The position numbers and the translations under genes were made by a program. Source: Chloroflexota bacterium (GTDB lineage Bacteria > Chloroflexota > UBA11872). Taken from it: a stretch of 64,000 nucleotides of DNA. The notes beneath the pieces were generated by a model that saw nothing but the letters and a program-made list of their open reading frames with translations, ran no database searches and had not been told where the DNA came from. Below, piece by piece: positions 17,610 to 20,522 of the stretch (positions are counted from its first letter, which is position 1; every line of letters starts with the position of its first letter). The stretch spans positions 124,001 through 188,000 of the forward strand of contig JAPOVQ010000025.1 of assembly GCA_026708035.1 (NCBI GenBank), in the 5' to 3' direction.

Positions 17610-17643
17610 CGAAGTCCTAGACGAGTTCCCGCACGAGGCCCGG

Positions 17644-18645
17644 CTAGTCCACGCCGTGCTGGTAGACGCTGAGGATCACGTCCTCGATCGGCGGATCGAG
17701 CACCGTAATGCTTCGCAGCCGCGCAGTCGCCATGATGAGGCTTACGGCGCTCACGATGTCTTCGGCGGCTCCGATCCCCGACACTCGCAGGCGCGTGCCT
17801 TCGACCACGATGGCGGCGCCCGGCCAGCGCTGCGCCAGCCTGGCGCGCGTCGCATCCGCCGAGCCGTCGGCCAGCTCGGCCTGAATCGAGCGCGTTGAGG
17901 CGTGTCGGTTCAGCAGGTGCTCCAGCGACCCGTCATAGATGAGCGCGCCCTCGTTGAGCACAAGTACCCGCTCGCAGAGCTCCTGGATGTCCGTGAGGTC
18001 GTGGGTGGTGAGGATGATGGCGGTTTGGTGCTCCTGGCTGATGGATCGGATGAACTCGCGGATTGCGTGCTTGCCCTCGATGTCGAGGCCAATCGTCGGC
18101 TCGTCCAGGTAGACGACGCGAGGACGGTGCAGAAACGCCGCCGCCAACTCGCAGCGCATGCGCTGGCCGAGACTCAGCGTCCGCACCGACTGGCGCATCA
18201 GCTCGTCGAGCCCCAGCAGATCGGACAGCTCCCGCAGCCGCGCCTCGTAGTCCGCCTGGCTCAAGCCGTAGACCTTGCGCAGCAGCGCATAGGCGTCGAT
18301 GGGCGGCAGGTCCCACAGCAGGTGCGACCGCTGCCCGAAAAGCACGCCGATGTTGCGTGCGTTGTCGATGCGGCGCTTGAAGGGGTCGAGTCCCAGCACG
18401 CGGGCGTCGCCGGATGTGGGGTAGAGCACGCCGGCCAGGATCTTGACCGTGGTCGACTTACCCGCGCCGTTGGGTCCGAGCAAGCCGACGATCTCGCCCT
18501 CGGCCACATCGAATGACACGTCGTCGACGCCGCGAATCTCGCGATACTGCGGCGCGACGAACGATCGCAGCCACCCGAGGCGTCCGGCTCGACGCCGCTC
18601 GACGCGATAGGTCTTGGTCAGGCCATTGGCCTCGATTGCCGCGAT
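17644..18645 (-). CDS. ABC-2 exporter ATPase with apparent ATC start
   Basis: About 333 residues if translation begins at ATC 18645-18643. The frame upstream to the stop at 18717-18715 has no ATG, GTG or TTG; the first is GTG 18519, which would remove conserved N-terminal residues (IEANGLTKTYRVERR and the following strand). GAGG lies five bases before the ATC. Walker A is GLLGPNGAGKSTT, signature LSLGQRMRCELAAAF, Walker B VVYLDEPTIGLD, and the switch His is in ILTTHD. Build matches ATPases paired with ABC2_membrane_6-type permeases, two of which are encoded just upstream. It ends in IEDVILSVYQHGVD. Confidence 0.85.
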   Translation of the reverse strand: MAAIEANGLTKTYRVERRRAGRLGWLRSFVAPQYREIRGVDDVSFDVAEGEIVGLLGPNGAGKSTTVKILAGVLYPTSGDARVLGLDPFKRRIDNARNIGVLFGQRSHLLWDLPPIDAYALLRKVYGLSQADYEARLRELSDLLGLDELMRQSVRTLSLGQRMRCELAAAFLHRPRVVYLDEPTIGLDIEGKHAIREFIRSISQEHQTAIILTTHDLTDIQELCERVLVLNEGALIYDGSLEHLLNRHASTRSIQAELADGSADATRARLAQRWPGAAIVVEGTRLRVSGIGAAEDIVSAVSLIMATARLRSITVLDPPIEDVILSVYQHGVD

Positions 18646-18720
18646 GGGAACCTCGCTTCTGCTTGCGATGGTGGGATTCCGGGCTGCCGCTGCTGCGGCG
18701 CCCCAATATTCAGCCTACTC
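18646..18720 (-). promoter_or_regulatory. Leader of the ABC-2 ATPase gene, shared with the remnant leader
   Basis: Reading the minus strand, AGTAGGCTG lies 74 bases before the ATC codon and AGCGAGG five bases before it. The leader of the deleted ATPase copy at 20523-20596 has AGTAGGCTG at 73 bases and GGGAGG at five bases before an identical CC-ATC-GC context. Conservation of both ends and of length suggests a common promoter/5'UTR. Confidence 0.5.
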
Positions 18721-18838: not shown

Positions 18839-19642
18839 CTAGGAAGCTCCCCACATCTCCGGGGTGCCGACGGACTGATACTTGCGGAAGGCGAACCGGA
18901 GCATCACGAGACCTCCGACCATCATGGCTGCCGCCACCGGAAGCCCCAGAATGCCGGGCATCAGGTATTGGTCCGGCCGCAGAGCGAACGCGGCGGGATA
19001 GAAGACCGTGAACGCCAGCGGAATAGCCGTCAGTACGCCTCGGAGTGGCTGGTCCATGACGTCGATGGGGTACCGCGAGTGATCGGTGAAGGCGGCGATC
19101 CCGTGCGACAGCACGCGCGACCGCGTGAACCAGGCCGCCAGGCAGAAGAGCATCAGCCGCATGCCGATGAACACCAGCCCCGTGCTCAAGAGGGCGACTG
19201 CCAGCAGCCCCATCTGTCCCGCGCTTCCCAGAATCCCTGTGTTCGCCGCGGACACGATCGCAACGCTGAGCATCACGACGACCAAGCTGACATAGCGCGG
19301 TTGGGTCGCCACCGTATTGGCCCACAGCACGATCGGGGCCGGTCGGACTCGGACGTAGTCGAGATCACCTTCGTGGAAGTAGCGGTCAATAACCGTCGGA
19401 AAGACGAAGAGCAGGTTCCCGACGCTCTCGGCCAGCATGGCCGTGGCCCACATGAGCGTGATCTCCCACGGCCCCCACTGACCCAATTGCGGCGTGACCG
19501 CGAACAGCAAGCCGACGACCAGCAGCCGTATGACCCGGTATCCCAGATCGCCCAGGATCATCGAGAGGGCGTCCACGCGGTATTGCGCCAGCCGCTTGAG
19601 CGTCAGCCGCAGACCCTCGACATAGATCCAGGCCCAGCGCAT
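18839..19642 (-). CDS. ABC-2 family permease, second subunit
   Basis: 267 residues, about six membrane segments. It starts MRWAWIYVEGLRLTLKRLAQYRVDALSMILGDLG-like in pattern (an amphipathic N terminus followed by the first helix) and contains GDLDYVRVRPAPIVLWANTVA, where DYVRVRPAP resembles the conserved loop LVRPVD/P of ABC2_membrane_6 permeases. It begins two bases after the stop of the first permease, so they are one transcript. With the ATPase it should form an exporter of unknown substrate (related systems export drugs, antibiotics or viologens). Confidence 0.85.
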   Translation of the reverse strand: MRWAWIYVEGLRLTLKRLAQYRVDALSMILGDLGYRVIRLLVVGLLFAVTPQLGQWGPWEITLMWATAMLAESVGNLLFVFPTVIDRYFHEGDLDYVRVRPAPIVLWANTVATQPRYVSLVVVMLSVAIVSAANTGILGSAGQMGLLAVALLSTGLVFIGMRLMLFCLAAWFTRSRVLSHGIAAFTDHSRYPIDVMDQPLRGVLTAIPLAFTVFYPAAFALRPDQYLMPGILGLPVAAAMMVGGLVMLRFAFRKYQSVGTPEMWGAS

Positions 19643-19644
19643 CG

Positions 19645-20460
19645 TCAGCCTCCCTGGACCAGCACTCGGCGAACGAGCTGCATCCAGAGCAGGCGACCGC
19701 TCACGATCAGGCCAAGGCCCCAGGCTGCCTGAATGCCCAGGGCTGCCAGCGCGTCAAGGCCTTGCAGATGACCGATGTAGATCAGCGTCGGGGAGGACAC
19801 CATCGCGTGAAACGGAAAGACGACCGCCGCCGTTGCCAGCCAGCCCGGCATCAGCGCCAGCGGGATGAAGCCGCCTCCCAGCACTTCCTGCAGCGCCACG
19901 CGCAGCAGGTTGACGCCTGGCGTCTGGGTAATCACCAACGTCAGGGCGGCTAGCACGTAGTGGAAGCCCGCCGCCACCAACCAGCCCAGCGCCACGCTCA
20001 CGGCAAACAGCCCCGCCTGCACGCCGGAATGCGGATCGCCGACGATGCCGGTGAGGCGGAAGATCAGCCACGTCGGGACGGCCACCATCAGCGCATCCAC
20101 CGCGAACACGCCCAGCCATTGCGAGTAGCGCAAGACCTGGTTGTCGATGGGACGCACCAGGTCCATGGCGATCTCGCCGGTGTGCACGTGGCGCAGGGCC
20201 TGGTAGAAGAACTGCCGATTCGCATGGCTCATCCGCGCCAGGCTCACGACCTGGGCGACGACGATGTAGGTGGCCAGCTCCGCCGCCGTGAACTCGGCTT
20301 GCGCCTCAACCGAATTCTGGCGGATTGCGGCCCACAAGCCGACCAGAATCCAGGTGGTGAGCAGGGTGATTGCCAGGCTCATGAAGAACCCGATGCGACG
20401 CGCCAGACTGACCTTGACGTAGGACCACCCGACGGCGATGGGGAGAGTCAGTGCTTGCAT
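19645..20460 (-). CDS. ABC-2 family permease, first subunit
   Basis: 271 residues, six predicted membrane segments. The N terminus has LPIAVGWSYVKVSLARRIGFF, and the conserved loop reads HTGEIAMDLVRPIDNQVLRY, the classic DLVRP motif of this permease family. Its ATG lies eight bases after the stop of a 17-codon ATPase remnant, in the place where an ATPase cistron would be expected. Forms a heterodimer with the next permease. Confidence 0.87.
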   Translation of the reverse strand: MQALTLPIAVGWSYVKVSLARRIGFFMSLAITLLTTWILVGLWAAIRQNSVEAQAEFTAAELATYIVVAQVVSLARMSHANRQFFYQALRHVHTGEIAMDLVRPIDNQVLRYSQWLGVFAVDALMVAVPTWLIFRLTGIVGDPHSGVQAGLFAVSVALGWLVAAGFHYVLAALTLVITQTPGVNLLRVALQEVLGGGFIPLALMPGWLATAAVVFPFHAMVSSPTLIYIGHLQGLDALAALGIQAAWGLGLIVSGRLLWMQLVRRVLVQGG

Positions 20461-20468
20461 CGGCCGGG

Positions 20469-20522
20469 CTATTCCGCGCCGTACTGGCGGACGCTAAGGA
20501 TCACGTCCTTGACCGTTGCGAT
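20469..20522 (-). pseudogene. Remnant of an internally deleted ABC-2 ATPase gene
   Basis: Seventeen codons from ATC 20522 to TAG 20471-20469. The last twelve codons (VKDVILSVRQYGAE) match the C terminus of the intact ATPase (IEDVILSVYQHGVD), with most of the last 42 bases identical. The 5' end (GAGG, five-base gap, ATC-GC) matches the intact gene's start. The pattern is that of an in-frame deletion of roughly 0.95 kb that kept the leader and the 3' end. The intact homologue is at 17644-18645. Confidence 0.7.

Follow-up and report, generated by a model that had tools for sequence, protein, structure and literature searches.

An ATC codon as the probable conserved translation start of an ABC-2 transporter ATPase gene in a genus of Chloroflexota

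Few bacterial genes with non-canonical start codons have been well characterised. Those most relevant here include infC, which starts with ATT in E. coli and with ATC in Streptomyces, and sigR, which starts with GTC; both are repressed by initiation factor IF3 (PMC5472188). In S. aureus, initiation at AUA or AUU yields about 10–30% of that at AUG (PMC13009471), and AUC belongs to the seven codons that initiate best in E. coli (PMC12350097). Literature matches for ATC or AUC as a start codon are mostly eukaryotic or mitochondrial. It is also worth considering that gene callers assume ATG, GTG or TTG, with the effect that N-terminal residues are clipped or whole proteins are missed.

The gene considered here encodes the ATPase of an ABC-2 transporter and lies in a window of 64,000 nucleotides (the whole stretch of DNA that was analysed) from a Chloroflexota genome; all positions are those of this window. 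The coding sequence occupies 17644–18645 on the minus strand, stop included, and gives a protein of 333 amino acids beginning IAAIEANGLTKTYRV when it is read from an ATC at 18645–18643, the codon at which translation very probably initiates. The minus strand reads ...AGC GAG GTT CCC ATC GCG GCA ATC GAG GCC AAT... around this point, with the Shine-Dalgarno (SD) sequence GAGG (GAGGT) at 18654–18651 separated from the ATC by the five-base spacer TTCCC. The ATC is the sole candidate at SD spacing and is the same in all four gene-bearing species of the genus. An in-frame stop (TAG) lies upstream at 18717–18715, and between it and the Walker A motif the only in-frame ATG, GTG or TTG is a GTG at 18519–18517; between the ATC and this GTG, the frame also holds a second ATC, three codons 3′ of the first (18636–18634), and a CTG at 18621. 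The original prediction had described a frame with no canonical start after the stop at 18717 until GTG 18519 is reached and an ATC five bases after GAGG, and on both points the sequence agrees, with all coordinates correct. The protein scores above threshold for the ABC_tran family (E 6e-26; 92.1 bits against a Pfam cut-off of 25) and both neighbouring genes belong to PF06182, while its best NCBIfam match, the drrA-type family TIGR01188, falls below the curated cut-off (216.4 against 312.45 bits).

Folding of the RNA at the ATPase start gave no consistent fold (z −1.5 to +1.0). A AGTAGGCT-type block lies about 65 bases 5′ of the ATC both in this leader and in that of a relic gene described below. 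An alignment of eight leaders shows that the block GAGTAGGCTGAA (18709–18720, minus strand) is partly common to both leaders in all four genomes, and its TAGGCT is a possible promoter −10 element.

The source genome (G000, 36 contigs) was compared with five relatives of the same genus, three of which carry an orthologue of the ATPase that is 96–97% identical. Two of these three are the Chloroflexota MAGs RHO3_bin_74 and COS3_bin_17, bin names that hint at an association of the bacterium with sponges. All three sister-species orthologues carry an identical GAGGTTCCC-ATCGCGGCAATCGAGGCC, and GAGGTTCCCATCGCGGCAATCGAGGCC is letter-identical in each of them; the site reads ATC, with no ATG or GTG and no indel, and in-frame ATG, GTG and TTG are absent there too. 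An orthologue starting at the equivalent of GTG 18519, which would have counted against the original prediction, was looked for and none was found. In the four-species alignment all 29 columns from GAGG to +20 are invariant, as against 124 of the 194 leader columns (64%) 5′ of GAGG, where the leader differs among species and contains frame-changing indels. Of codons 1–42, 12 show synonymous and 3 show non-synonymous variation, a pattern like that of codons 43–334 (72 and 18, respectively). This first stretch is therefore translated, and initiation must take place 5′ of GTG 18519. Purifying selection is apparent from codon 2 on, with third-position-biased change 3′ of the ATC and indels 5′ of it, in a comparison of four closely related species that owe a good part of their coding similarity to recent common ancestry. 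That the ATC and the leader nucleotides at the start are shared by four species amid a diverging leader is beyond what would be expected by chance.

Outside the genus, orthologues have canonical starts at about the same place: GTG (L019) or ATG (L020) in the sister genus and ATG in the next family (L119). Likewise, a canonical start lies within 35 codons in 81 of 83 wider homologues, and the two exceptions are the orthologues from this genus. The ATC is therefore derived and specific to the genus, where it appears to have arisen after the split from the sister genus. Most simply, its origin would precede a duplication of the operon, since both duplicate leaders carry ATC.

The evidence for this duplication comes from gene order. 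In the window, the ATPase gene is preceded on the minus strand by two permease genes, permease 1a (19645–20460; ABC2_membrane_6, E 3.1e-7) and permease 2a (18839–19642; same family, E 2.2e-18), and these in turn by a short open frame at 20522–20469 that consists of an ATC start and the last codons of an ATPase gene, 17 codons and a TAG in all (IATVKDVILSVRQYGAE), and that is open in all four species. Three sister genomes have the order relic, permease 1a, permease 2a, ATPase, permease 1b, permease 2b, and outgroups carry a single ATPase with two permeases; hence, the operon was duplicated and the first ATPase copy lost its interior. Only G000 among the four genomes has lost permease pair b, and a scar at 17617–17634 on the minus strand (GTG CGG GAA CTC GTC and the stop of permease 2b) marks the place where both copy-b permeases are present in the sister genomes. 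The tail of the relic matches the ATPase C terminus, PIEDVILSVYQHGVD-stop, and because the motif ATCGAGG occurs twice in the ATPase, at codons 4–6 and near the gene end, the relic may have formed by deletion between these two short repeats. Its peptide drifts between species while the frame and the ATC persist; possibly the relic couples translation to permease 1a, whose ATG lies 8 bases after the relic TAG.

This relic bears directly on the earlier argument about the start. The original prediction had noted GAGG-N5-ATC-GC at 20522 as well, and it is indeed present there as GAGG-TTTCC-ATC-GC, with the GAGG (20531–20528) five bases from the ATC; CATCGC is kept in eight of eight leader copies (two leaders in each of four species). 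However, the two leaders were taken to be independent and used as such to argue against a sequencing error, and they are paralogous copies, one of them belonging to the 17-codon remnant. The exclusion of an error survives on the ATC of four genomes; the reasoning from independent leaders does not. Judged from the aligned genomes, conservation across species is the stronger evidence and takes the place of the two-leader argument.

It is useful to weigh these observations against other ways of reading the locus. The first canonical in-frame start, and the one that a mechanical ORF list gives, is GTG 18519, in which case the upstream stretch would be an untranslated leader. We reject this start as highly improbable because residues 2–42 are under protein-level constraint and are conserved in distant homologues; it would cost 42 conserved residues, among them LTKTY, a conserved motif whose aromatic residue we assign to the A-loop, and would leave the SD-ATC block without a role. 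A sequencing or assembly error for ATG or GTG is imaginable in a metagenome assembly, the more so as ATC is one base from ATG, but the probability of this is negligible given that four genomes, each assembled on its own, and the leaders of four relics all show the same ATC, and the three sister genomes rule it out. Translation could instead begin at a nearby non-canonical codon (ATC 18636 or CTG 18621), or in another frame with a subsequent frameshift. ATC 18636 is also invariant, and both AUC and CUG are able to initiate (PMC12350097); nonetheless, this seems unlikely, as neither codon has an SD at the right distance, an overlapping ORF with a TTG start is confined to a different frame, and indels that change the frame distinguish the leaders of different species.

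If translation does initiate at ATC 18645–18643, the GAGGU SD five bases upstream would set the AUC in the P site, where the CAU anticodon of the fMet-tRNA would pair with its first two positions and be mismatched at the third. IF3 would be expected to destabilise this mismatched complex, making initiation inefficient, and low initiation would hold the ATPase below its permeases and render it sensitive to the level of IF3. By this reasoning, the AUC is likely to be read as Met, with a low yield that depends on IF3. Changes in the initiation machinery itself were considered and rejected as the cause: the usual GGG/CCC stem of the initiator tRNA (GGG-CTCATAA-CCC) is intact, by exact match, in five of six genomes, with G002 having no exact match, and IF3 is of normal length rather than truncated. 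With an ordinary initiator tRNA and IF3, the simplest account is therefore ordinary inefficient initiation aided by the SD. A low yield of the ATPase may be under selection and tuned by IF3. It is conceivable, at somewhat less than even chances, that the ATC is the start but is tolerated and effectively neutral, with no regulatory role, a view that challenges only the functional part of our reading: starts of this sort are found at several genes of the organism, and its need for the ATPase may be low, yet ATG is only one C-to-G substitution away and all four species, and both duplicate leaders, retain the ATC.

The ATPase is not the only gene of this kind in the genus. A survey of 473 kb of G000, taken in stretches and set against G003 (281 gene pairs), looked for coding constraint 5′ of the first canonical start and found three more conserved non-canonical starts, in pdxA, a chromate transporter gene and an MFS transporter gene. 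Four cases per 281 gene pairs is a rough lower figure, from a survey that catches only cases in which the first canonical codon lies far downstream and that was partly judged by eye, without a control lineage. The clearest is pdxA (L204:2971-3996, minus strand; also L215-L220; NCBIfam TIGR00557, above cut-off), in which AAGGAG-CCCCGC-ATC (AAGGAG-N6-ATC) is present in all six genomes of the genus and codon 2 may be Pro, Arg or Ala while the SD-ATC stays; no canonical codon occurs before the Met of ITMGDP, which is already within the conserved domain, and most sister-genus copies have ATG or GTG at the start. In all six genomes the chromate transporter gene (PF02417; L128:5831-6982, minus strand; also L143-L148 and L149-L156) has GTA or GTC, and in none of them GTG, after AAGGAG-N7, with one genome reading AAAGGAG-TATCCCG; several sister-genus genomes have no well-placed canonical start and a conserved ATC GAA CG at the expected position. 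For the MFS transporter (L163:7746-8981, plus strand; also L182-L187), ATT, or ATC in one genome, is the sole start candidate in all six genomes, behind a weaker SD. Across the whole family, infC itself has its most likely start at a CTG six bases 3′ of GGAG (L120-L125, L236-L248), with some residual likelihood for a TTG or ATG that abuts the SD in most genomes.

Several conserved cases in one genus are what heightens the interest of the ATPase finding. We would suggest, tentatively, that near-cognate starts (ATC, ATT, GTA/GTC, CTG) may serve this lineage as a recurring way of setting translation: leaving infC aside, the 281 pairs hold four or more conserved cases, in genes for transport and for the synthesis of vitamin B6, that could form an IF3-responsive set. 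Sister-genome comparison in such a lineage offers a culture-free count of these starts and a way into the question of joint control of several genes by IF3.

It is in comparison with the known systems that the features of the ATPase start are best seen. Like infC, for which ATT, ATC and AUA starts are known, it combines a conserved non-canonical codon with a good SD upstream, and with Streptomyces infC it shares the ATC itself (PMC5472188), but it belongs to a transporter gene with no evident autoregulatory loop. Streptomyces sigR also has a conserved non-canonical start, which sets the ratio of partner proteins (PMC5472188) as the ATC may do here; the ATPase differs from it in codon and protein class, and repression by IF3 is known for sigR and predicted for the ATPase. 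The ccpN genes of S. aureus and B. subtilis (AUA) and cvfC1 of S. aureus (AUU) also pair a conserved weak start with an SD, with a lowered yield of the kind predicted for the ATPase (PMC13009471), although their SD motifs are extended and that of the ATPase is GAGGU only. In E. coli, pcnB (AUU) is a chromosomal gene other than infC that is limited by a weak start (PMC1780047, PMC13009471), from which the ATPase differs in codon and function. Finally, ABC-2 transporters with PF06182 permeases and a drrA-like ATPase have the same operon make-up, an ATPase and two ABC2_membrane_6 permeases, whereas homologues elsewhere start with ATG, GTG or TTG. Read in this light, the ATPase and the other genes described here appear to extend a phenomenon known from infC, pcnB, sigR and ccpN to new genes and to a new lineage.
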